Shown here: in pieces, positions 13,388 to 27,530 of the stretch | How the letters are laid out: each line of letters opens with the position of its first letter | How positions within the stretch are numbered: the stretch's first letter is position 1 | Assembly: GCA_021774575.1 (NCBI GenBank) | Contig: JAJFIX010000046.1 | Location: 1 to 64,000 of the forward strand | Length of the DNA stretch: 64,000 nt | From: Alphaproteobacteria bacterium | Lineage (GTDB): Bacteria; Pseudomonadota; Alphaproteobacteria; UBA6615 | Direction of reading: 5' to 3' | Position numbers and translations under genes: made by a program | Notes under the pieces: generated by a model | The model's database searches: none | Seen by the model: the letters and a program-made list of their open reading frames with translations, nothing else | Told to the model about the DNA's origin: nothing

Positions 13388-16300
13388 TTGACCGGCATTT
13401 TGTGCTGGGCAATGGCATTTGCTGTTGTCGCATTGGGGCCTGGTCGGGCTCAAGCGGCTGGCCCACCGACCTTGCCTCCGTTGGCGGCATTAATTGCAGC
13501 CGCGTTTGCCGACATCACGACCCTTGTTATAGCGCCTGCCGTTGGCCCGACGGTCAACGCGGCCGCGGCATCACCGGTGACAACCGATAGTCAGACAGAT
13601 GCATTTACGCCCGTGCATGCCGATGTGACGACCACTGCTTTGGCGGGTGATGCAGCGGGTGAAGATCTAACCAATAACGCTGTCATCTCCAACACAGGCA
13701 CTGCAGAAGCAGAAATAATTACCGGTGGCCTCGTTGTCCCTCTCAACGCCCTCTTTGGTACGGCGGATGAGGGTGTCACAGCTAACGCCGATATTACCGG
13801 CATCGGATTGGGCAACGGCGGCGTCAATTACCTGACCAACGGCGCGTCCGTAACATCGGTCGCCAACGCCAATGCCAAGAGCGGTAACGTTGATATCAAT
13901 CTAATCGAACTTGAGAAAGTCGACGCCAATATTTTGGCAACGGCAATTGCCACTGGGATTTCCGGCGGCGCTTTTCGCGACGTGATCTTGAATAACGCTC
14001 TGCTGACGGCAACGGCGAATGCCGATGCCGAGCATTTTGACGGCGAGTTCAATATTTTGAACACAACATCGGGCGAGATGAATGTTGCCGCCCAGGCAAC
14101 GGCGACCGGCATTGATGGCAAGGCCGGCGATGACGTGATGATCAACACGGATACGATAACAGCAACAGCCAACTCCGAAACAGATTTGACCAGCGTCACC
14201 CTGAGCATTGGCGATGCGGCGATTCTGGACCTTTCGGTGTTCGAGGCGTCGGGGGATACGGCGCCGATTTCAGAGGCCGACGCGATCGGTATCCAAGGTG
14301 GTAGCGGCGCCGATGTGGCGATCAATAGCGGTACAATTAATGCGACGGCAAATGTCGAGGTTGATACGGTAACAATCGGTGTTACTGGTTTTGGCGTTAC
14401 TGACGCTGGCACTATTGCCGGTATTTTTAGCGCCGATCCACAGGTTGACGCCGCAACGACAGCCGTCGCCACTGCTATCGGCATAGACGGCGGCACGGGG
14501 GCCGACCGGCTGGCCAATAGTGGCACGATCAATGCCACGGCCACGTCAGACGCAACCAGCACCGGCGTCACCGTTGCCGTGCCTGTGCCAAACTTGCCGA
14601 CGCCACTGTCGTTCTTGCCCGGCTTTAATATTATCGGAGTAGGCACCGGTGACGATGCCACCGCTTACGGTATAAGCGGCGGCGACGATAACGATTTTAT
14701 TGGCAACGAGGGCAATGTGGCGGCAACAGCCACGTCCAATGCCCTTGCCGTCTCCGTAGGGGTAGAGCTGCCCGATCTTTTGAGTGATGAGAGCGATGAC
14801 CCGACCATTAGCACGGGCTTTTCTGTCACCGACGCGGCGACGGAATCCGATGCCACCGCCACGGCTCTTTTCGGCGGCGGCGGCAATGATACACTTAGAA
14901 ATTTAGCCGAAACGCTGACGGCAGCTGCGACGTCCGATTCCCAAACCACTGCTGTCAGTGTCATCCTGACCCAGGGCGGCACAGGTTTTACCGGTCGTCT
15001 CAACGCGGCACGTACCTCTGTCATTTCGACAGCGAACGCGATTGGTATGGACGGCGGTGACGGCAACGACATTATGGCCAATTCGGGCACTCTGATCGAT
15101 GCCGATGCCGATGCGGAAGCCGACAATGTTAGCGTCACCGCCCAAATCACTTATGCCGATGATCCGGGCTCGGTTTTGATCTCGGTCGCTGGTATGGCCA
15201 GTGAAACCGAGGCGACGGCCAATGCGTCGGGAATGGATGGCGGCGATGGCAATGACGAGATACAAAATGACAACGCCATTGATGCCGATGCCATATCCGA
15301 CGCATTGGCCGTGGTCGTCAGTGTTGCCATAAACTTTAACAAAGATACCGGCCTTGCTGCCGGTGTTCAGCTTATTGATACAGATGTAACGGCGAACGCT
15401 ACCGCAGAAGGACTCAGTGGCGGCAACGGCAATGATATGCTGGTAAACAACGGCACGATCAATACGGACGCGACGGCCAATGCGACCGGCACAGTCCTTA
15501 GTTTCGGACTTGCCGGCGCCTGGTCACAGGGCGCGTCGATTGCCGTGGCTGTCGCCGATACGAGTACCAATGCCAATGCCGATGCGGTCGGTATTTCCGG
15601 TGGAGACGGCGACGATACGATTTCCAACATGGCGAGCGTGACAACCAATTCAACCGCCAATGCAAACTCTTTAGGCGTCAGCGCGACGGTGGCGATGACC
15701 AAGGATACCGGGTTCGCCGCCGGGGTGACGGCCCTTCGCACCGGCGCCTACGCGGATGCAGAATCATACGGTATTGCCGGCGGTGAAGGGGCCGACACAA
15801 TTTTCAATCAAGCCGACATCGCCGCGACGGCCAATGCCCAATCGGATGCAGCCAGCATCGGTATATCTCTGGCCTTCACCAAAACCGGGGCTTCACTCGG
15901 TGTCTCTTTGGTTGACGCTCAAACCATGGCGACCGCTGCCGCCGCCGGTATTGTTGGCGATGTTTTGGATCAAATTGATAGCAGTGGCACGCTGGATGTG
16001 ACGGCCATGGCTGACGCGGCTTCGATCGGTGTCAGCACGAGTTTCGCTATCGCCTCAAGCGCCGGGTTAACAGCCGGTGCCTCACTTACCAAGGCCGGGA
16101 CTGTTGCTGACGCAACGGCCACCGGTATCGTTGGCGGTGGGCTAGCTGATACTCTGACGACGACCGGTACATCCGATATTTTGGCCGATGCTGATACCAG
16201 TAGTGTTGGCGTCGGGGTAACTGTCTCGGGAACAAAAACGGGCGTTGCGTTAGGTGTGTCGTTGGTCGATACGGCTACAGATGGCAGAGCGGTCGCGACC

Positions 16301-19300
16301 GGTCTTTCGGGGAATGAGGGTGCCGATAGTCTCGCAAATACCGGAACTCTCAATGTTACGGCCGACACCGACGCGTCTTCGACCGGCGTATCCGTCTCTA
16401 TTTCAGCAGCGATGAAAGCTGGCGTATCCGCTGGCGCGGCGCTAGGGCGCGCGACCGGCGAAGCCCATGCTATTGCCACTGGGATCGAGGGTGGCGCAGA
16501 CGGGGATACGATTACCAATTCGGGAACCGTCAATTCAACCGCGAACGCCGATATCACCAGTGTTGGTGTTTCGGTTGGCCTATCTGGTACGTCAACGGGC
16601 GTTTCATTGAGCGCCGCGCTCTCTGATACGAGTGCAATTGCCGAAGCTATTACCAAGGGTCTCTTCGGTGGCTGGGGAGACGATATCATCGTTAGTACCG
16701 GGGCGGTGAACGCAACGTCTGTTGCTGATGCGGCGGCGACCACGGCTTCGGTGAGCGTCGCGGTCGCGGCAACCGGTATCGCCGCGGGCGTTTCTATGGC
16801 GCGTTCGCAAACCGAGGCGAGCGCCGATGCGGTCGGGATCGATGGCGGTCACGGCAGCGATATGATCACGACATCGGGCACCATCAACAGTATAGCCGAC
16901 GCTGACGCCGACGGCGTTGCGGTCGCGGTTACGATTTCGGCTTCCGCCAAAGGTGCATCGGCTGGTGCGGCTTTCACGGATGTTGGCGTCAGCGCCGACG
17001 CGACCGCCGCCGGTATTCGCGGCGGCGACGAGGCGGGGGCTCCAGACACCCTTGGCGACAATATTTTGAATAACGCGATCATTAATTCGACGGCAGATGC
17101 CGACGTCACCGGTACCGCTGTTGGCGTCACCGCGAGCATATCCTTCGTCCCACTCGGCTTCACTCAGGTTAACGCCGCCGCCGACGCAGCTGCAACTTCG
17201 GTCGGTATCGACGGCGGATTGGGCGCCGACCTGATCAACAACATGAACAGTGTGACCTCAAATGCTCTAGCCGGAGTTATCGGTACATCGGTGGGTGTCA
17301 CACTGGCGATCGGGGCCACTCTTGGCGATTTGACCGCCAATTCCATTGCGACGGCGACGGGTATCGATGGCGGTGACGGCGAAGACGAGATCCTTAATAC
17401 CGGCAGTATTGCCGCCAATGCGACCTCGACTGGAACCGGCATCGCGATCGGTATCGGTATGGCCGGCGCCTCTCTTACCGATGGCTCGACCAGCTCGACC
17501 GCAACGGCGACTGGTATTGATGGCGGCGCCGACAAGGATATTATCGACAATCGGGCGGCTGTCGATGCCGTCTCAAGTGCGACGGTGGTCGGCGTGTCGG
17601 TGAGCGCGACGTTGGGCGCCGGCGCGGCACTAAGCGACGTCAGCACGACGGCCGATGCGACGTCGACCGGCGTTGACGGCGGTGCGGGGAATGATGAGAT
17701 CGTCAATAGTGACACCCTGACGGCGACAGCAACCTCGAGCGGTGTCGGTGTTTCGGTTTCTGTGGCGATAACCGGCGCAGCACTTGCCGATGCTTCGACC
17801 AACTCAAACTCGACGGCGACCGGTGTCGATAGTGGTACTGGTTCAGACGTCATCGATAACCAAGGCGTAATTGACTCCAATGCGACCTCGACTGTGACCG
17901 GTGTCTCGGTCTCCATTGCGCCAACCGGCGGCTCACTCACGGACGCCACATCAACCGCGACAGCAACAGCCTACGGGGTCGATGGTGGTGACGATATCGA
18001 TCAGATTCTCAATCAAAATACGATTGATGCCGATGCTATCGCGACGGCAACTGGTGTCGCGGTTTCTCTGACGATGACTGGGGCCGCCCTTAGCGATTTG
18101 GTAACCAAGGCAAACGCCATGGCGGCCGGGGTCAGTGGTGGCGCGGGCAACGATATTATCGACAATCAAGATACGATCAACGCCACGACCAGCGCCACGG
18201 TAACGGGGGTTTCGGTGAGTGCGGTCGGTGTCGGGGCAAGCTTGGGTGATTCGTCCAGTAACGCGGTTGCAACAAGTTATGGCATCGGCGGCGGCGCCGG
18301 CGATGACACGATTACCAACAGCGCAACTCTGAATACCTCGGCAACTGCCGGAGGCACGGGCGTGACCGTCGCAATTTCCGGGGCCGGGGCAGCGCTGGCA
18401 GACGGCGCGACAACGACGAGCGCCTCGGCAAACGGAATAGGTGGTGACGCGGGTGAAGACACGATTGTCAATTCAGGCGCGATGGACATCGACGCCACAG
18501 CCGATGTCACCGGGGTTTCGGTATCCGTCGCCATTGCCGGTGCGGCGATCGGCGATCTGACGTCGAAGTCGGAGGCCGAGGCACGGGGCATCGACGGTGG
18601 CGACGACAACGATATCATCACCAATACCAATACCATCGATCTAGACGCCGACGCCGACGCGACCGGGGTTAGCGTTAGTGTCACCGTTGCCGGGGCCGCG
18701 ATCGCCGAAGCGTCGAGCAGCGCCAACGCCGATATCACAGGTATATCGGGTGGGCTCGGTGCCGATAATGTGGTCAATCAGGGCACCATAACCGGTACCG
18801 CCAACGGTAATGCAACCGGCACCAGCGTTTCTGTCGGTGCCTTTGGTGCCGCTCTCGGCGATCTCAGTACGACCAGTCGTGCAACCGCGACCGGCATCGA
18901 AGGCGAAGCGGGAGACGACAGGTTAGAGAATGCCGGCACGATCGATCTCGATGCGATCGCGAAGGGCGGTAGCACGTCGGTTGGGGTAACATTGGTCGGT
19001 GGCGCATTAACCACGGATTTGGTGACCGTCGCCGACGCGCTGGTTACCGGCATGGCCGGCGGCGCTGGCGCAGACACTCTAATCAACAGCCTGAAGATCG
19101 ATATACTGGCTGACGCCGACAGCGATGCGACTGCGGTCTCGGTCGGGGTGATCGGCGGTGCGTTATCAGGCGGGGGCACTCGCTCGGCATCCCAAGCAAT
19201 AGGGTTTGACGGCGGTAGCGAAAAGGACATCGTTATCAACAGCGGCGAAGTGATCGCTGCGGCGACATCTCGGGCCGAGGCGGGTTCAGTCTCGGTCAGC

Positions 19301-22300
19301 CTCGCCGGTTATGCGGCAACCGAGGGCGCATTGTCGTCAAAATCGACAGTCTACGGTGTGACCGTGGGCGACGGCGATGACGAGGTCTTAAACACCGGAA
19401 CCATGGACCTAGACGCGACCGCGACGACCTCCGTGAGTGGCACAAGCGTTTCAATTGCCGGCGCCAGCAATAACAGCCCGAAATCCGACGCGGCGGCAAT
19501 CGCCACCGGGTTGGATGGTGGCGAAGGACATAACATGCTGATCAACCGAGGCAGCATTACCCTCGATACGACAGCAACAATGGGGATGAGCAGCGCCGGT
19601 TTCACCTTTGCCGGAAGTGCAAGCGCCGACGGCTTCCTCGAGGCCAATGTGGAGGCGGCCGGAATGCGCGCTGGAAGTGGCAACGATTTACTTTCAAACG
19701 AGGGCGTTCTTAGAATTACAGCCACCGCGAATTTATCCAGCACCGGCGATAGCACCGCTGCATTCGGCAGCTCATCAGCCGGCGATTCTACCTTGGCGGT
19801 TGCTTCGGCCTATGGGCTCGACGGCGGCAATGGCAACAATATGTTTCTCAATTCTGACGCCATGGACGTCACCGCAACGACAAACATCAGCGCCAACCAG
19901 GCGGCTTATACATTTGGTGGTGGAAGCAGCTCCGATAGCGTGTTGACATCGCGCTCCCACGCGGTCGGCATAAATGGTGGCAATGGTATCGATCAGGTGC
20001 AAGTTGACGGCACTTTGAATGTGACATCTGAGGCAAATCTCACCTCCAGCGGCAGTTCCAATTCTACCTTCGGCGGGTCATCATCCGAAGCCGGAATGTC
20101 AGCTCAAACAACAGGTGTGGGCATTAACACCGATGGCGCCGCCGATATCGTTGTCATTACCGGTACTGTCGCGGTCGTGGTCGATGCCGACGGGACGGTC
20201 AACAATGACTCGAGCACAGGTGTGGCGCTCTTTAGCGATGCCAAGGCGGTTTCCACTGTGACCATTACGGGCTCTGGTTTCGGCGTAGACCTGGGTGATC
20301 AAGCAAACCAATTTCTAAACGAAGGGCTGCTCTCTGTCGTGGTCGGCGGAACGGGCAAGGCCATTTCATCGGCGGAAGGAGACATCGGCATTATCGATGG
20401 CGACGCAAGGTCATTATCGAATGCCACCGCGAATGATTTTAACGCGTCCGGCATTGCGGCTGGAAACGGCAATAATGTGATCACCAACGATGGAGACTTG
20501 TTTGTTGTGGTCCAGCCGGCAGCAGAGGCTATTTCGGATGCGGATGGTGATGGAATTGACGGTGATGGCGACGCCGATTCAAATTCCAACGCCAATAATG
20601 CGGAAGCGGTCGGGATCGATGTCGGAAACGGTAACAACGTCATTACCAATATGGCGGGGGCATTGATCGATGTTGTCTCAAGGCCATTGGCAAAAGGCAG
20701 TGCGACAGCAGACGGCGACCTTGGGGGCGATGCCGATGCCGATACGAGCTTTCATGCCGACAACGCGTTAGCCATCGGCGTGCGGACAGGCAATGGCGCG
20801 AATAGGGTTATCAATGAAGGAACGATTTTGGCCCATGCCAATCCGAGCACCCAATCGACGGTCAGTTCGACGACCGATCCGCCGGTGCCGCCGAATTGTC
20901 CCTTCACCACAGACACCAGCACCGACCCAGATACCATCACGTACCATTGTCCCGCTGCCCCGACGCCGGGAACGGGGCAACTCGGCTCGACCAACAATGC
21001 GCGCTCATATGGTGTCATGACCGGGGCCGGTAACGACATTGTTGAGAACTGGGGATCGATCGAGGCCAAAATTACTATCAGTGCCGTGGTTACCTACGAT
21101 GTCGGCATCCAAACCGGCGGTGGGAACGACTTAGTCAAGCTCGGTGATGGGTCGTCGGTAATGGGTGATGTGGATCTGGGAAGTGGCGCCGATACGTTGC
21201 ACCTTATTGGTACGCCAACTGTGTCCGGTATTGTCGCGGGCAGCGGTGGATCCAACGCCCTGATTTTTGAAGGACCTGGGTTTTTTGCCAATGCTTTGGG
21301 CATATTTGCCGGTGGCAGCGCGACAAAGACACTGGACGGCACGTATTTGATCCGCGATTTACCCAATCTGACCCGCCTGCGGATGGAGTTGGGCACGCTG
21401 CGCTATGACGATGGAGTTTTTCCGACAAATTATACTATGGACGCGGGCGACGTATTCGAAGTGCGGGTCGATCGGATCGAGGGAAATGGAGCTTTTAGTG
21501 CCGCCGGAACCGTCACCAATGACGGCGAAATCATTGTCGAAAAGGGCCCGCACGCCTTTGCCGATGGCGATAGCTTCGACGTTGTAATCGGCGATACGGC
21601 CGTCGTCGGCACATTCGACACGGAAACCCTGCCATCAACCGCGCTGCTTGGTTTCAGCGTCATTTACGATCCCACGGTTACCCGGATTGCCGCAAACGTG
21701 GCCTCCTTTGGCTCGGTTCTTTCGGGCAGCGACCCATATGCCGATGCGGTCTCAGAGTATCTCAATCAAATCTTGGCCGGCTCGGATGGCGATCTATCAC
21801 TGTATCTTGGGCTCTTTCAAAATATGCCGGTGGGCACTAATTTCGACGACCTGTTCAATAGCTTGAGCGCCAACGTTTATGACCTGCTCGCGGTGACCCA
21901 AGCCGACGGATTGATCACAGCAGCGCAAATGCATCATGCTCGGATGGTCATGTGGCGTAACCTTGCGAGTGTTCTGGGTCAGGGTGGGGGGCAACCAGCG
22001 TTCTCACTTGAACTCGACGGTCTGCAAAACACCGCAGTTTTAGGCGATGCGCTGGGGCAAAATGGATCATCGGTTGGTAGCATTCTCACGGTCGCGCCTT
22101 GGGCAGGGGTGTTTGGCGGCGATACAAAATATGGTAGCCGCGGAACCGGAGATTTGCCATTTAGCGCCGCAAGCCGTGGCTGGGCGATGGGTGTTGATCT
22201 AGCCGCATCGGAGGGGTCGATGGCGGGCTTCAGCTACACTGGGTATACAACCCAGTCTGAAATTGATTCTGGCCTGCGAGCAATTGGCGACATCACTGGA

Positions 22301-22930
22301 CGCGCTATTTCCGGCTACACCAGTGTTCTGCTTAGTAAGACGACTTATGCCGAGATCGATTTCAGTCATGGCAATACAGAAACCGTTGTGACGCGCCAGA
22401 TCGGCAGCGGCGTCACAGCGCAGACAGCAACAGGCAGTTTCGAAAGCCGGATTGATACCGCCCATGTTGAACTCGGGCGATCTCTGCTGAACGACGGTAC
22501 GCGTGCAGAAGTGTTTGGGTCATTACGGTTCGCCCGGGTTTCCGATGACGGGCATACCGAGAGCGGTGGCGGTCCGGTCGCGCTCGTTGTTGATGAGAAC
22601 AAGTCTACGTTTCTGCAGTCGGAACTTGGGTTTCGCGCGGGGGTGCCAATTGCCGTATCGAACGGATTTGTCGTTCCCCGCATGAGTGCCTCATGGATCC
22701 GCGACTACAATGTTAGTGACCGCCCAATTTCCGCAGGGTTTGTCAGTGCACCGGGTACGAAATTCACTCATCCTGGCCGCCCGGTCGAGGGCGAAGCATT
22801 CAAGATTGGTGCCGGTCTACACGTTGTATCCACTCAAGCCGGTGTAGAGAGCAATCTTGGTTTCGAAGCCGAATTACGCGATAAAGCCGTGGGCTTCACC
22901 GGTTCCGTCCAAATTGATATTCGTTTTTGA
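13388..22930 (+). CDS. Giant repeat autotransporter (type V secretion, RTX-like repeats)
   Basis: About 3,180 residues. The order is: hydrophobic export signal (ILCWAMAFAVVALG...AQA, residues 4-23), a passenger of about 45 repeats (residues about 138-2590), a beta-helix-like connector, and a C-terminal autotransporter barrel from about residue 2905 ending in VQIDIRF, with the terminal Phe typical of outer-membrane barrels. Most repeats contain G-[ILVM]-x-G-G-x-G-x-D-x-[ILV]-x-N followed by a strand rich in T, A, V and S. Only two Cys lie in the passenger, in a Pro/Thr-rich insert near nt 20880-20960, possibly a disulfide. The passenger is acidic and Ala/Thr/Asp-rich. Probable surface adhesin or surface-layer-like protein; function is not known. 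TTG 13388 is the annotated start, but it has no ribosome site; the frame upstream encodes a basic stretch (STRTKFRYLTG) that would make a better signal peptide. Confidence 0.88.
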   Translation: MTGILCWAMAFAVVALGPGRAQAAGPPTLPPLAALIAAAFADITTLVIAPAVGPTVNAAAASPVTTDSQTDAFTPVHADVTTTALAGDAAGEDLTNNAVISNTGTAEAEIITGGLVVPLNALFGTADEGVTANADITGIGLGNGGVNYLTNGASVTSVANANAKSGNVDINLIELEKVDANILATAIATGISGGAFRDVILNNALLTATANADAEHFDGEFNILNTTSGEMNVAAQATATGIDGKAGDDVMINTDTITATANSETDLTSVTLSIGDAAILDLSVFEASGDTAPISEADAIGIQGGSGADVAINSGTINATANVEVDTVTIGVTGFGVTDAGTIAGIFSADPQVDAATTAVATAIGIDGGTGADRLANSGTINATATSDATSTGVTVAVPVPNLPTPLSFLPGFNIIGVGTGDDATAYGISGGDDNDFIGNEGNVAATATSNALAVSVGVELPDLLSDESDDPTISTGFSVTDAATESDATATALFGGGGNDTLRNLAETLTAAATSDSQTTAVSVILTQGGTGFTGRLNAARTSVISTANAIGMDGGDGNDIMANSGTLIDADADAEADNVSVTAQITYADDPGSVLISVAGMASETEATANASGMDGGDGNDEIQNDNAIDADAISDALAVVVSVAINFNKDTGLAAGVQLIDTDVTANATAEGLSGGNGNDMLVNNGTINTDATANATGTVLSFGLAGAWSQGASIAVAVADTSTNANADAVGISGGDGDDTISNMASVTTNSTANANSLGVSATVAMTKDTGFAAGVTALRTGAYADAESYGIAGGEGADTIFNQADIAATANAQSDAASIGISLAFTKTGASLGVSLVDAQTMATAAAAGIVGDVLDQIDSSGTLDVTAMADAASIGVSTSFAIASSAGLTAGASLTKAGTVADATATGIVGGGLADTLTTTGTSDILADADTSSVGVGVTVSGTKTGVALGVSLVDTATDGRAVATGLSGNEGADSLANTGTLNVTADTDASSTGVSVSISAAMKAGVSAGAALGRATGEAHAIATGIEGGADGDTITNSGTVNSTANADITSVGVSVGLSGTSTGVSLSAALSDTSAIAEAITKGLFGGWGDDIIVSTGAVNATSVADAAATTASVSVAVAATGIAAGVSMARSQTEASADAVGIDGGHGSDMITTSGTINSIADADADGVAVAVTISASAKGASAGAAFTDVGVSADATAAGIRGGDEAGAPDTLGDNILNNAIINSTADADVTGTAVGVTASISFVPLGFTQVNAAADAAATSVGIDGGLGADLINNMNSVTSNALAGVIGTSVGVTLAIGATLGDLTANSIATATGIDGGDGEDEILNTGSIAANATSTGTGIAIGIGMAGASLTDGSTSSTATATGIDGGADKDIIDNRAAVDAVSSATVVGVSVSATLGAGAALSDVSTTADATSTGVDGGAGNDEIVNSDTLTATATSSGVGVSVSVAITGAALADASTNSNSTATGVDSGTGSDVIDNQGVIDSNATSTVTGVSVSIAPTGGSLTDATSTATATAYGVDGGDDIDQILNQNTIDADAIATATGVAVSLTMTGAALSDLVTKANAMAAGVSGGAGNDIIDNQDTINATTSATVTGVSVSAVGVGASLGDSSSNAVATSYGIGGGAGDDTITNSATLNTSATAGGTGVTVAISGAGAALADGATTTSASANGIGGDAGEDTIVNSGAMDIDATADVTGVSVSVAIAGAAIGDLTSKSEAEARGIDGGDDNDIITNTNTIDLDADADATGVSVSVTVAGAAIAEASSSANADITGISGGLGADNVVNQGTITGTANGNATGTSVSVGAFGAALGDLSTTSRATATGIEGEAGDDRLENAGTIDLDAIAKGGSTSVGVTLVGGALTTDLVTVADALVTGMAGGAGADTLINSLKIDILADADSDATAVSVGVIGGALSGGGTRSASQAIGFDGGSEKDIVINSGEVIAAATSRAEAGSVSVSLAGYAATEGALSSKSTVYGVTVGDGDDEVLNTGTMDLDATATTSVSGTSVSIAGASNNSPKSDAAAIATGLDGGEGHNMLINRGSITLDTTATMGMSSAGFTFAGSASADGFLEANVEAAGMRAGSGNDLLSNEGVLRITATANLSSTGDSTAAFGSSSAGDSTLAVASAYGLDGGNGNNMFLNSDAMDVTATTNISANQAAYTFGGGSSSDSVLTSRSHAVGINGGNGIDQVQVDGTLNVTSEANLTSSGSSNSTFGGSSSEAGMSAQTTGVGINTDGAADIVVITGTVAVVVDADGTVNNDSSTGVALFSDAKAVSTVTITGSGFGVDLGDQANQFLNEGLLSVVVGGTGKAISSAEGDIGIIDGDARSLSNATANDFNASGIAAGNGNNVITNDGDLFVVVQPAAEAISDADGDGIDGDGDADSNSNANNAEAVGIDVGNGNNVITNMAGALIDVVSRPLAKGSATADGDLGGDADADTSFHADNALAIGVRTGNGANRVINEGTILAHANPSTQSTVSSTTDPPVPPNCPFTTDTSTDPDTITYHCPAAPTPGTGQLGSTNNARSYGVMTGAGNDIVENWGSIEAKITISAVVTYDVGIQTGGGNDLVKLGDGSSVMGDVDLGSGADTLHLIGTPTVSGIVAGSGGSNALIFEGPGFFANALGIFAGGSATKTLDGTYLIRDLPNLTRLRMELGTLRYDDGVFPTNYTMDAGDVFEVRVDRIEGNGAFSAAGTVTNDGEIIVEKGPHAFADGDSFDVVIGDTAVVGTFDTETLPSTALLGFSVIYDPTVTRIAANVASFGSVLSGSDPYADAVSEYLNQILAGSDGDLSLYLGLFQNMPVGTNFDDLFNSLSANVYDLLAVTQADGLITAAQMHHARMVMWRNLASVLGQGGGQPAFSLELDGLQNTAVLGDALGQNGSSVGSILTVAPWAGVFGGDTKYGSRGTGDLPFSAASRGWAMGVDLAASEGSMAGFSYTGYTTQSEIDSGLRAIGDITGRAISGYTSVLLSKTTYAEIDFSHGNTETVVTRQIGSGVTAQTATGSFESRIDTAHVELGRSLLNDGTRAEVFGSLRFARVSDDGHTESGGGPVALVVDENKSTFLQSELGFRAGVPIAVSNGFVVPRMSASWIRDYNVSDRPISAGFVSAPGTKFTHPGRPVEGEAFKIGAGLHVVSTQAGVESNLGFEAELRDKAVGFTGSVQIDIRF
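13799..21150 (+). repeat. About 45 internal protein repeats, each with a GGxGxD-like turn
   Basis: I counted about 45 copies of the motif by eye from GIGLGNGG (about 13799) to GIQTGGGNDLVKL (about 21104). In the centre the spacing is very regular: successive glycine codons at 17360, 17513, 17669, 17822 and 17975 are 153, 156, 153 and 153 bases apart, i.e. 51-52 residues. The first part has longer units of about 60-75 residues; the last part is more degenerate and replaces GG with TG, VG or AG. The regular centre suggests recent tandem duplication. Confidence 0.85.
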
Positions 22931-24465: not shown

Positions 24466-25626
24466 ATGGGTATGGAGCTACCGTATCGTATAGTTCGTTT
24501 GCCGAATGTCGCCGGAATAATACATGAAATTAGCGGGAAGATTTATGACTCCTCCGATCCGTCATTTTACTGTCTTCAAGCCCCATCCAGATCTTTCTAT
24601 GTTCGGGGGCCAAGTTTGCATCTCGACCGCGCGGGGAGGGTTTGCCCAATGACCGTACTCGGGCAACGGGCGACCCGCCATGAGCCGCTTTTACCGCCAC
24701 TTTTGCCAGTGTCCAAAAGCGGTGTTCTCGGGCGAACAAATGACCGGGTCCAACGGGGCCAGCGGGTCGAACTTGGCGGACTCCTACGTTCTAGCAAGAG
24801 GGTAACAGAACGCCGCCGCATTGATCTTATTGGGCCCGCTAAACCTCTTTCGCCGGTGCTTGCACCTGTGCTCTCACCCGTGCTTGGCATAGCCGCCAAA
24901 GGAGCAGGCGAGCGTATCGACGCCCGGATGAATGGCCGACAATTGGTTGCTCAAATTTCCTGTGCTGCAGTTGGCTCGTTCGGTCCTGTCCGCATACCTT
25001 GCGGCCTCGGATATCGGTCGGGGAATTTCTATAAGGTGTCGGTTAACGAGGTGACGTTCGAAGATGTGCATGGTTTGGATTTTTCACCAATACCGTCGCT
25101 GCGTCCCGTCGTCGCCCTAAAGCGAATTGTCGTTGGCGTGCGAAATGGAAAGCAGGTTTTGGTGGCTCAGGCAGAGGCTTATCAACGCCAAGCGCATGTT
25201 TGGTCTGGCCTGAAGGCAGCCGCCGCAGCGATGGGGGTGGTTACTGCGATCGGCGGTGTCGCTGCTTCCTTTAACGGGCATTTTATCGCCGGAGGGCTGA
25301 TCATGCTCATCGGGTTCTTGTGGGGCGTGGCGGCAATAATTTCCCACTCCAAGGGGGGTGCACTGGGTGAGGATCTCGCAATTTTGCGCCGCCATTGCGC
25401 CGTCCTTGAGGGACTAATTGGTACTGCCGATATAGTCAATTCGATCAAAGATCCGGGAAAGCGGAATGACGCCAAAGAGCGCCTGCTGCAGCAGGCCTTC
25501 AATATCGAAATTCCCACCGATGTGATGAGCAGGGATGAGGCAAGCACAAGCGCGGGCCAACATAAGGATGCGAGCCCTTTTCGCGCTGGGTTGACCTTTC
25601 CGGATGCCCCCAAGCCGCTAACGTAA
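24466..25626 (+). CDS. Hypothetical protein with two C-terminal-half membrane segments
   Basis: 386-codon frame, no family recognised. The first about 150 residues are Pro/Arg/Ser-rich without predicted structure and may be partly non-coding or belong to a later start. From about residue 155 the protein looks genuine: a GSFGPVRIPCG...NGKQVLVAQAEAYQ region, then two adjacent TM stretches (about 247-290, AAAAAMGVVTAIGGVAAS and GLIMLIGFLWGVAAIIS) and a helical tail with LLQQAFNIEIP. Convergent with nsrR; the two stop codons are only a few bases apart. I cannot offer a function. Confidence 0.55.
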   Translation: MGMELPYRIVRLPNVAGIIHEISGKIYDSSDPSFYCLQAPSRSFYVRGPSLHLDRAGRVCPMTVLGQRATRHEPLLPPLLPVSKSGVLGRTNDRVQRGQRVELGGLLRSSKRVTERRRIDLIGPAKPLSPVLAPVLSPVLGIAAKGAGERIDARMNGRQLVAQISCAAVGSFGPVRIPCGLGYRSGNFYKVSVNEVTFEDVHGLDFSPIPSLRPVVALKRIVVGVRNGKQVLVAQAEAYQRQAHVWSGLKAAAAAMGVVTAIGGVAASFNGHFIAGGLIMLIGFLWGVAAIISHSKGGALGEDLAILRRHCAVLEGLIGTADIVNSIKDPGKRNDAKERLLQQAFNIEIPTDVMSRDEASTSAGQHKDASPFRAGLTFPDAPKPLT

Positions 25627-25628
25627 TA

Positions 25629-26051
25629 CTAAATGAATTTGGACAATTCGTCGGCATTTCCCGTTATGTCATGAAGATTGTAGCCGGCTAATTCCTGGAG
25701 AAACGCCGAATTAGCTTTAGAAATAATATTTTTTAATGAGCAGCAACTTGCGATCGGGCAGGTGTTTTTTTCTTTGTTGAAGCATTCAACGATATCAAAG
25801 TCGTTCTCGGTGGAGAGCACGACGTCTTTTATATTAATTTCCTTCGGGTCCTTGGCAAGGAATATACCGCCGCCGACCCCTCTTTTCGTTTGCAGAAATC
25901 CATTTTTTTCCAAATGCGTCACCACTTTAATCAAGTGATTGCGCGACATATCAAAGGATGAAGATATTTCATCTAGCGATACTGGCCGGTCCTTTAAGGC
26001 CGCAAAAATGAGCGTCCTCAAGGCATAATCCGTAAATAATGTCAGACGCAT
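25629..26051 (-). CDS. nsrR: Rrf2-family NO-sensing repressor, NsrR type
   Basis: 140 residues with an Rrf2 winged helix (MRLTLFTDYALRTLIFAAL, then SLDEISSSFDMSRNHLIKVV) and a cluster-binding loop ECFNKEKNTCPIASCC. The Cys spacing matches the three ligands of the [2Fe-2S]/[4Fe-4S] cluster in NsrR proteins. Loss of the cluster on reaction with NO relieves repression. It is divergent from a truncated haemoglobin and reductase pair, exactly the kind of target expected, and a partial palindrome lies between them. IscR is less likely given the loop and neighbours. Confidence 0.88.
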   Translation of the reverse strand: MRLTLFTDYALRTLIFAALKDRPVSLDEISSSFDMSRNHLIKVVTHLEKNGFLQTKRGVGGGIFLAKDPKEINIKDVVLSTENDFDIVECFNKEKNTCPIASCCSLKNIISKANSAFLQELAGYNLHDITGNADELSKFI

Positions 26052-26080
26052 TTTTGGTAATTTTCACCCTTGAATTTAAT

Positions 26081-26101
26081 TGTTGCATCTAATATATAAC
26101 A
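26081..26101. promoter_or_regulatory. Candidate NsrR operator between nsrR and the haemoglobin gene
   Basis: TGTTGCATCTAATATATAACA is an imperfect 21-bp palindrome centred on 26091 (7 of 10-11 arm positions match). The left arm contains the TGCAT core seen in NsrR half-sites of enterobacteria. Its location, in the 79 bases between the divergent starts at 26051 and 26131, fits autoregulation and control of the haemoglobin operon. Confidence 0.45.
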
Positions 26102-26130
26102 TTTTTTATCTGATGTTAAGGAGCGGCTTC

Positions 26131-26496
26131 GTGACGACATTGTATGAACGCTTAGGTGGGCAACCAGCTGTTGAGACAGCCGTCGATATATTCTATCGCA
26201 AAATTCTCGACGACGCCCGAGTGAATTATTTTTTTGATCAAACCGACATGGACGGTCAAATCGTCAAGCAGAAGTCTTTCTTGACCATGGCCTTCGGAGG
26301 GCCAAACAAATATACGGGGAAAGACATGCGAGAGGGCCATAAGCACCTCATTGAAAGAGGCCTGAACGACGCACATGTCGACATTGTTATTGAGCATCTG
26401 GGCAGTACTCTAAAAGAACTCGGTGTCGCCGATGCCGACATTTCCGAAGTCGCAGCAATTGCCAATAGCGCGCGGGACGACGTTTTAAATCGCTAA
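26131..26496 (+). CDS. Group 1 truncated haemoglobin
   Basis: 121 residues from GTG 26131, which has AAGGAG seven bases upstream; an in-frame ATG at 26080 would add a hydrophobic, poorly coding leader and is rejected. It matches group 1 (trHbN) proteins: TTLYERLGGQPAVETAVDIFYRKIL at the start, the FFDQTDM region, GGPNKYTGKDM and the proximal haem His in MREGHKHL. Such proteins oxidise NO to nitrate when an electron donor is present. The next gene, 17 bases downstream, encodes a flavin/Fe-S reductase that could be that donor. Regulation by the divergent NsrR is likely. Confidence 0.9.
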   Translation: MTTLYERLGGQPAVETAVDIFYRKILDDARVNYFFDQTDMDGQIVKQKSFLTMAFGGPNKYTGKDMREGHKHLIERGLNDAHVDIVIEHLGSTLKELGVADADISEVAAIANSARDDVLNR

Positions 26497-26513
26497 TTGA
26501 GTGGACGGATGTC

Positions 26514-27530
26514 GTGGCTAGCCTAACATTTGGAAATGTCGACTATGCCCTTGAGAAGGGCGAATCCGTCCTTGATGGGCTCACACGACATGGTCAAACC
26601 ATACCCCATTCTTGTGAGGTCGGGTCCTGCCAAAGCTGTTTGATGCAGGCAAAAGCGGGCGACCCAGGAAGCATGGCGCAGGCAGGGTTGAATGAAGCGC
26701 TTAAAGCGCAAAACTTCTTCCTCGCCTGTCGATGTTTTCCTGATGAGGCATTGTCGGATGAGGCATTGTCTGTCGCCTTGCCTTCAATGGCGGATACGAC
26801 GGTAGAAGCTGAGATCGTCGCAATCGAAATGCTTTGCCATGACATCGTCGCTCTACGGCTAAGACCGGTTGAACAAATTTTTTGCCGCCCCGGACAATTT
26901 ATCAGCATTGTGCGTGATGGGGGTTCTCTGATCCGCAGTTATTCGGTCGCTAACCTGCCCGAGCGAGACGGATACCTGGAGTTACACATAAGAAAAATCA
27001 CCGATGGCCGAGTGAGTTCCTGGGCTCATGATGACGCGAGGATTGGTGAGAAGGTCACTGTCAGAGGGCCGGCGGGAAATTGTTTTTATATCCCAAGCGA
27101 TGAAGGCTCATATCCGATTTTGCTAGCCGGGACCGGGACGGGTCTTGCCCCCCTTGAAGGCATCGTTCTTGATGCCTTGGCGCAAGGCCATACCGGACCT
27201 ATTCATTTATTGCATGGCGCGCTCCGCGAAGACGATTTCTATCATATTGACCTGTTGAGGGCTCTTGTGGTTCGGCACGAGAATGTGAGCTACACGCCGT
27301 GTGTTTTGCACCCAGGCACGGATCACGACATTCTTGATCTCCAGGTCGGACCGTTAGATGAATTTGTCGATTCTGCCCTTGGCAAATTGGAGAAAGCCAG
27401 CCTCCGCACCTATTTTTGCGGCGCGCCGGAAATGGTTAATTTGCTCAAGCGCAAGGCCTTTATGGCCGGTGTCGCTTCAAGGAATAATTTCAGCGATCCA
27501 TTTGTCATCGCGGCTGATCGAAGAAGTTGA
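26514..27530 (+). CDS. 2Fe-2S/FAD/NAD(P)H oxidoreductase, probable haemoglobin reductase
   Basis: 338 residues in the class IA oxygenase-reductase order. An N-terminal plant-type [2Fe-2S] domain has Cys ligands in SCEVGSCQSC and a fourth in LACRC; an FAD domain has RSYSVAN; an NAD(P) domain has LLAGTGTGLAP and the C-terminal YFCGAPEMV. Start is GTG 26514 with GGACGGA upstream. A 15-base direct repeat (encoding DEALS twice, near residue 80) marks a small tandem duplication in the linker. It resembles the reductase half of flavohaemoglobin with an added ferredoxin; its place after the truncated haemoglobin suggests it feeds electrons to it. Confidence 0.85.
   Translation: MASLTFGNVDYALEKGESVLDGLTRHGQTIPHSCEVGSCQSCLMQAKAGDPGSMAQAGLNEALKAQNFFLACRCFPDEALSDEALSVALPSMADTTVEAEIVAIEMLCHDIVALRLRPVEQIFCRPGQFISIVRDGGSLIRSYSVANLPERDGYLELHIRKITDGRVSSWAHDDARIGEKVTVRGPAGNCFYIPSDEGSYPILLAGTGTGLAPLEGIVLDALAQGHTGPIHLLHGALREDDFYHIDLLRALVVRHENVSYTPCVLHPGTDHDILDLQVGPLDEFVDSALGKLEKASLRTYFCGAPEMVNLLKRKAFMAGVASRNNFSDPFVIAADRRS

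Follow-up and report, generated by a model that had tools for sequence, protein, structure and literature searches.

The locus examined lies in a 64-kb stretch of DNA (the window) from an alphaproteobacterial genome of 3.5 Mb and comprises three genes and the regulatory features listed below, with the basis for each gene or site call in brackets.

25629-26051, minus strand: nsrR, Rrf2-family repressor of 140 amino acids (Pfam Rrf2 and NsrR-model match)
26082-26100, strandless: predicted NsrR operator, GTTGCAT-N5-ATATAAC (palindrome and matrix score)
26118-26123, plus strand: AAGGAG, probable ribosome-binding site for globin translation (sequence)
26131-26496, plus strand: group 1 truncated haemoglobin, glbN-like, 121 amino acids (Bac_globin match and pocket residues)
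26514-27530, plus strand: NAD(P)H-dependent [2Fe-2S]/FAD reductase, 338 amino acids, GTG start (Pfam and PDB relatives)
26553-26741, plus strand: Fer2 [2Fe-2S] domain of the reductase, residues 14-76, with Cys34, Cys39, Cys42, and Cys72
26808-27089, plus strand: FAD-binding domain of the reductase, residues 99-192, with an RSYS motif at 141-144
27129-27443, plus strand: NAD(P)H-binding domain of the reductase, residues 206-310, with GTGTG at 206-210

The globin, reductase, divergent NsrR-type gene, and palindrome were all present at the positions given in the initial annotation. The divergent nsrR and globin genes are separated by 79 bp, and the palindrome (GTTGCAT-CTAAT-ATATAAC) lies ∼30 bp from either start codon. 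Only 17 nucleotides separate the globin stop codon from the reductase start, and the two proteins are encoded by separate open reading frames rather than as one fused chain. The GTG at 26131 is best read as the globin start, given that AAGGAG lies seven nucleotides upstream and that homologous genes start at the same point. A formate-tetrahydrofolate ligase gene sits downstream of the globin-reductase pair (hereafter glbN-red), and the 386-residue open reading frame beside nsrR (24466-25626) gave no match to Pfam or NCBIfam. Elsewhere in the window, an open reading frame of 3180 codons (13388-22930) contains degenerate repeats and an autotransporter-like C terminus.

Inspection of the globin sequence revealed a match to Pfam Bac_globin (E 6e-18), and the closest solved structures were Synechocystis cyanoglobin and the Tetrahymena group 1 truncated haemoglobin (E ∼1e-33). 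The residues expected to line the haem pocket are Tyr22 (B10), Gln43 (E7), Lys46 (E10), Gln47 (E11), and the proximal His70 (F8), in agreement with the group 1 class originally proposed for this protein. When 84 reductase-adjacent globins were compared, all of them (84/84) had Phe B9, Tyr B10, Gln E7, Gln E11, and His F8, and position E10 was Lys in 82 and Met in two. In Synechocystis GlbN this position is occupied by His46, the sixth haem ligand; from the Lys or Met found here, the paired-globin family is probably not locked in the hexacoordinate state of the Synechocystis type.

The reductase contains Fer2, FAD_binding_6, and NAD_binding_1 domains (Pfam, E 4e-10 to 4e-13), and no specific equivalog was found above cut-off in NCBIfam. 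An additional N-terminal [2Fe-2S] domain had been claimed for this protein and is borne out by the Fer2 match and by its four cysteines (Cys34, Cys39, Cys42, and Cys72), which are conserved in 84/84 pairs; the RxYS FAD motif and GxGxG NAD motif are almost invariant across the same set. The features of BenC/MmoC/GcoB-type reductases, namely an N-terminal plant-type [2Fe-2S] domain, an RxYS FAD motif, and an NAD domain, are thus all present. The top PDB match by sequence was GcoB, the three-domain reductase of a cytochrome P450 (E 9e-32), and GcoB also gave the best alignment to an AlphaFold2 model of the reductase (mean pLDDT 84), with a Z score of 29.2 over 318 residues and an rmsd of 9.8 that probably reflects domain placement. 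Next in the structural ranking were NqrF, BenC, and T4moF, and a Vibrio Hmp-type FAD/NAD domain aligned with the reductase part only (Z 26.3). Docking of the globin with the Fer2 domain through acidic and basic surfaces was ruled out, as both sides are acidic. A search of viral contigs with the reductase returned zero relatives.

Eighty related, named genome loci were scanned. The globin was followed by a reductase on the same strand in 76/80, mostly within a few nucleotides, and an Rrf2 regulator was nearby in 51/80. The gap between the two genes was <30 nucleotides in most of the 84 pairs, and no globin-reductase fusion was found among the fetched loci. Because dozens of genomes show the same genes side by side in the same order, the layout noted for the window is not a product of chance. 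Divergent nsrR, glb-red-nsrR, and nsrR-glb-red layouts were all observed. Hosts included Alphaproteobacteria and Gammaproteobacteria (many Legionella; Methylocystis), together with metagenome-assembled genomes labelled Planctomycetota, Acidobacteriota, and Marinimicrobia, labels that are possibly binning errors. Group 1 relatives of the globin at E 1e-15 or better were present in 32 of 385 genomes of the same class. These 385 genomes also contained 18 close reductases (≥159 bits, the next scoring ≤135 bits), 12 of which lay beside a close group 1 globin and three beside a divergent globin. Pairing is nevertheless not obligatory, since at three loci (L024, L026, and L028) NsrR and an operator-like site accompany a globin that has no adjacent reductase.

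The sequence class of the reductase also fits a general electron donor that serves an oxygenase, P450, or other partner and merely shares an NO-induced operon with a globin that itself only scavenges NO or O2, and a few close reductases (G190, G308:C106, and G216:C148) indeed had no globin nearby. Against this stand the adjacency to a globin in nearly all of the scanned loci, across several phyla, and the correlated divergence of the two proteins, the distance matrices of globin and reductase correlating with r = 0.64 across the 84 pairs as compared with a permutation maximum of 0.09, a correlation of which part would be expected from shared descent alone. The reductase scores are, moreover, well separated from those of generic reductases, and no oxygenase component lies beside the reductase at the window locus. 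A general donor role is accordingly considered improbable, and the globin remains the favored partner.

Several further arrangements were observed. At L154:3068-4531, L155, and L150, the order is reversed, a reductase family member preceding a divergent truncated globin. At L010 (G005:C30:38485), in a genome of the same family as the window, the globin has two stops and the reductase is split across frames, representing either a decayed pair or assembly errors. In gammaproteobacterial loci L062, L066, L072, L096, and L124, a gene for an HPP-family membrane protein is found beside the globin gene. The HPP family includes nitrite transporters.

The regulator matched Pfam Rrf2 (E 5e-33) and gave the best NsrR-model score in the genome (108.9 bits, the next Rrf2 protein scoring 38.9). 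Its Cys90, Cys98, and Cys104 align with the [4Fe-4S] ligands Cys93, Cys99, and Cys105 of Streptomyces ScNsrR. Arg12 is present, as is Asp8, the fourth cluster ligand in NsrR (PMC5411485); the other three Rrf2 proteins of the genome lack Asp8. Among 56 globin-adjacent regulators, the three-cysteine motif was found in 56/56 and Asp8 in 55/56. In a regulator tree, the window protein grouped with two other globin-linked regulators (98/99 support), this group lying near a Legionella-Francisellaceae group with weaker support (81/75). The assignment as an NsrR-type regulator is therefore upheld at the level of sequence by the three cluster cysteines, Asp8, and the best NsrR match in the genome.

The same protein scored below the NCBIfam NsrR cut-off (109 versus 182 bits) and nearly as well with the RirA model (107.8 bits). 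As RirA is an alphaproteobacterial regulator, it might be supposed that the window protein is instead RirA-like and that the pair answers iron or redox state, or O2, rather than NO. However, an NsrR linked to a globin in Legionella, and with a perfect operator, likewise fell under the cut-off (138.6 bits), so the cut-off, an annotation threshold rather than a biochemical definition, is narrow. The regulator also carries Asp8 as in NsrR and not the conserved Asn8 of RirA (PMC10510648), the operator is of the NsrR type, and the tree, which contained no RirA sequences, groups the protein with globin-linked NsrRs. A RirA-like, iron- or redox-responsive regulator is thus very improbable, and an NO-responsive NsrR is preferred.

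The palindrome matches the NsrR consensus gATGyAT-N5-ATrCATc (PMC1274295) at 11/14 positions and is a divergent variant. When the 64 kb were scanned with a weight matrix derived from 25 operator sites in relatives, the window excluded, 26082-26100 ranked first with 18.5 bits as compared with 7.3 for the runner-up, in keeping with the operator-like character ascribed to it beforehand. In the 200 bp upstream of globin genes, the best consensus match averaged 12.7/14 with a divergent NsrR and 9.3 with no NsrR nearby, the mean for shuffled sequences being 8.9/14; perfect operators preceded 17/41 globin genes with a divergent NsrR. The pattern GTTnnAT-N5-ATnnAAC was common to the window, L024, and L055, the three that group together in the regulator tree, and GTT...AAC looks like a clade-specific operator. 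A search for a wing or recognition-helix residue behind the GTT variant found the variant NsrRs to be all of one clade. A GTT...AAC site also occurred in an unrelated lineage (L113), where the NsrR lacks the Lys-Arg-Gly wing.

No further perfect match to the variant pattern was found in the 3.5-Mb genome, and glbN-red may therefore be the sole NsrR target there, as reported for Legionella. The only one-mismatch site, at C16:25253, was dropped as a target, as it lies inside repeat-rich coding sequence.

Taken together, the locus is best read as an NsrR-repressed two-protein NO dioxygenase, a reading to which we assign a probability of about 0.72. In the absence of NO, holo-NsrR would occupy the palindrome in the divergent intergenic region, repressing glbN-red; from the position of the operator, autorepression of nsrR is also probable. 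NO would then damage the [4Fe-4S] cluster of NsrR, and the operon would be expressed. The ferrous globin haem would bind O2, and reaction of NO with O2 would yield nitrate and leave the haem ferric, after which the reductase would re-reduce it with electrons passing from NAD(P)H via FAD and the [2Fe-2S] cluster. The proposed route is the one taken in Fer2-FAD-NAD reductases whose partners are oxygenases and P450s. We infer the dioxygenase turnover, the reduction of the globin by the reductase, the exit of electrons through [2Fe-2S], and the NO-responsive expression.

The same regulator and parts would also fit an NO-defence pair that is active chiefly when O2 is scarce and reduces NO, nitrite, or hydroxylamine at the haem via the reductase. 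The HPP genes beside the pair in several gammaproteobacterial loci point in this direction, as does the conversion of NO into N2O that the Bjgb/Flp proteins of Bradyrhizobium japonicum have been proposed to carry out when O2 is absent (PMC4724949). NO reduction by Hmp, however, proceeds at ∼1% of its dioxygenase rate (PMC4724949), and the invariant B10-E7-E11 pocket is tied to O2 stabilization and NO detoxification in the Tetrahymena truncated haemoglobin (cited in PMC3820574). Reductive chemistry as the main activity is accordingly regarded as unlikely, if somewhat less so than a general donor role for the reductase, and NO dioxygenation remains the preferred function.

No full-length flavohaemoglobin (Hmp) was found above cut-off in this genome. 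A candidate at C17:13790 was rejected, as the match is confined to the reductase portion, within a 691-residue open reading frame of other architecture. Among genomes with the pair, Hmp was present in 0/44 gammaproteobacterial genomes (background 12/185, ∼2.9 expected) and 0/10 alphaproteobacterial genomes (background 21/385, 0.55 expected), numbers that are weak and drawn from non-independent lineages. Exclusion of Hmp by the pair is only suggestive and was given up as a claim, the counts being too small and the genomes phylogenetically non-independent. Copper nitrite reductase was also looked for and was not found.

A second globin-reductase pair is encoded in the same genome (L017:7614-9050; G000:C31:217634-219049). 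Its globin shows 64-65% identity and its reductase 31-35%, HRCS replaces the RxYS FAD motif, and neither an Rrf2 gene nor an NsrR site was found nearby. A more ambitious scheme, put forward tentatively and rather doubtful as a whole, is that glbN-red is a widespread two-protein counterpart of flavohaemoglobin that moves as a unit among Hmp-lacking bacteria with its own NsrR lineage, that within the clade of the window GAT...ATC operators gave way to GTT...AAC, and that the NsrR-free second copy has taken on a different role.

Truncated globins were also observed in other settings. A third truncated globin of the genome (L015:1483-1932; G000:C31) has an N-terminal hydrophobic, signal-like stretch. 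Truncated-globin domains are present in CheA kinases (L018:2152-5235, L020:4721-7885, L044:1-2379, and L046:1-2976) with an HPt-globin-dimerization-ATPase-CheW architecture, some with a receiver and L046 with two globin domains; such proteins, which are possibly haem-based gas sensors, are encoded also by members of the family to which the window belongs. At L032:1471-3360 and L029, an N-terminal truncated globin is followed by repeated PAS-like domains, and L029 contains a methyl-accepting-type signalling sequence in a separate open reading frame. Two and three tandem truncated-globin domains are encoded at L096:2267-3109 and L102:1458-2741, respectively, with no paired reductase nearby.

For few truncated haemoglobins is the native electron donor known, and their standing as true NO dioxygenases is therefore in doubt. 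A globin and a reductase that are conserved as a pair and controlled by an NO sensor supply a directly testable donor candidate and hint at how NO may be dealt with in bacteria that lack flavohaemoglobin. The proposal that the pair is a two-protein equivalent of flavohaemoglobin is partly supported, through its components, their pairing, and the lack of full-length Hmp in the genome; it had been made earlier for Legionella, as discussed below. As proposed for the pair, Hmp uses a globin together with an FAD/NAD(P)H reductase to dioxygenate NO, and it is the commonest NsrR target, but its 3/3 globin is fused to the reductase in a single chain that has no [2Fe-2S] domain. The reductases GcoB (5ogx), BenC (1krh), MmoC, and T4moF share the order of N-terminal [2Fe-2S], then FAD, then NAD domains, but they are ∼21-26% identical when structurally aligned and serve oxygenases or a P450 instead of a globin.

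Experimentally, the nearest counterpart is Bjgb/Flp of B. japonicum, an adjacent single-domain haemoglobin and flavoprotein in joint NO defence, mutants in either of which are sensitive to NO donors (PMC4724949). Bjgb, however, is homologous to the globin domain of Hmp, whereas the window globin is truncated, and the Bjgb/Flp operon is under NasS-NasT nitrate-assimilation control rather than NsrR; Flp has also been proposed as a donor to NasC (PMC4724949).

In Legionella pneumophila, glbN-lpg2536 was predicted to be the sole NsrR target and proposed to carry out Hmp-like NO oxidation (Rodionov et al. 2005, PMC1274295), a prediction later cited as evidence that ferredoxin reductases donate to truncated haemoglobins (Gardner 2012, PMC3820574); no experimental test of this pair was found in the openly accessible literature. 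As at the window locus, a cyanoglobin-type truncated haemoglobin and a ferredoxin-reductase-like protein are encoded in a single operon preceded by an NsrR site. Loci of Legionella species, L. pneumophila itself being absent from those compared, share the window layout of divergent nsrR, operator, globin, and reductase, but their operators are of the form GATnnAT-N5-ATnnATC as opposed to GTTnnAT-N5-ATnnAAC. A two-protein NO dioxygenase under NsrR is therefore not a new kind of system, having been predicted for glbN-lpg2536 (PMC1274295). Unlike Legionella, the window host is alphaproteobacterial, a class in which the 2005 survey encountered essentially no NsrR, orthologs being absent from its genomes except one (Rodionov et al. 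2005, PMC1274295). What is new relative to the Legionella system is the NsrR-globin-reductase module in Alphaproteobacteria, the breadth of the module, the GTT...AAC operator in a small NsrR clade, and, in the same genome, a second NsrR-less pair whose reductase is without the canonical FAD motif.
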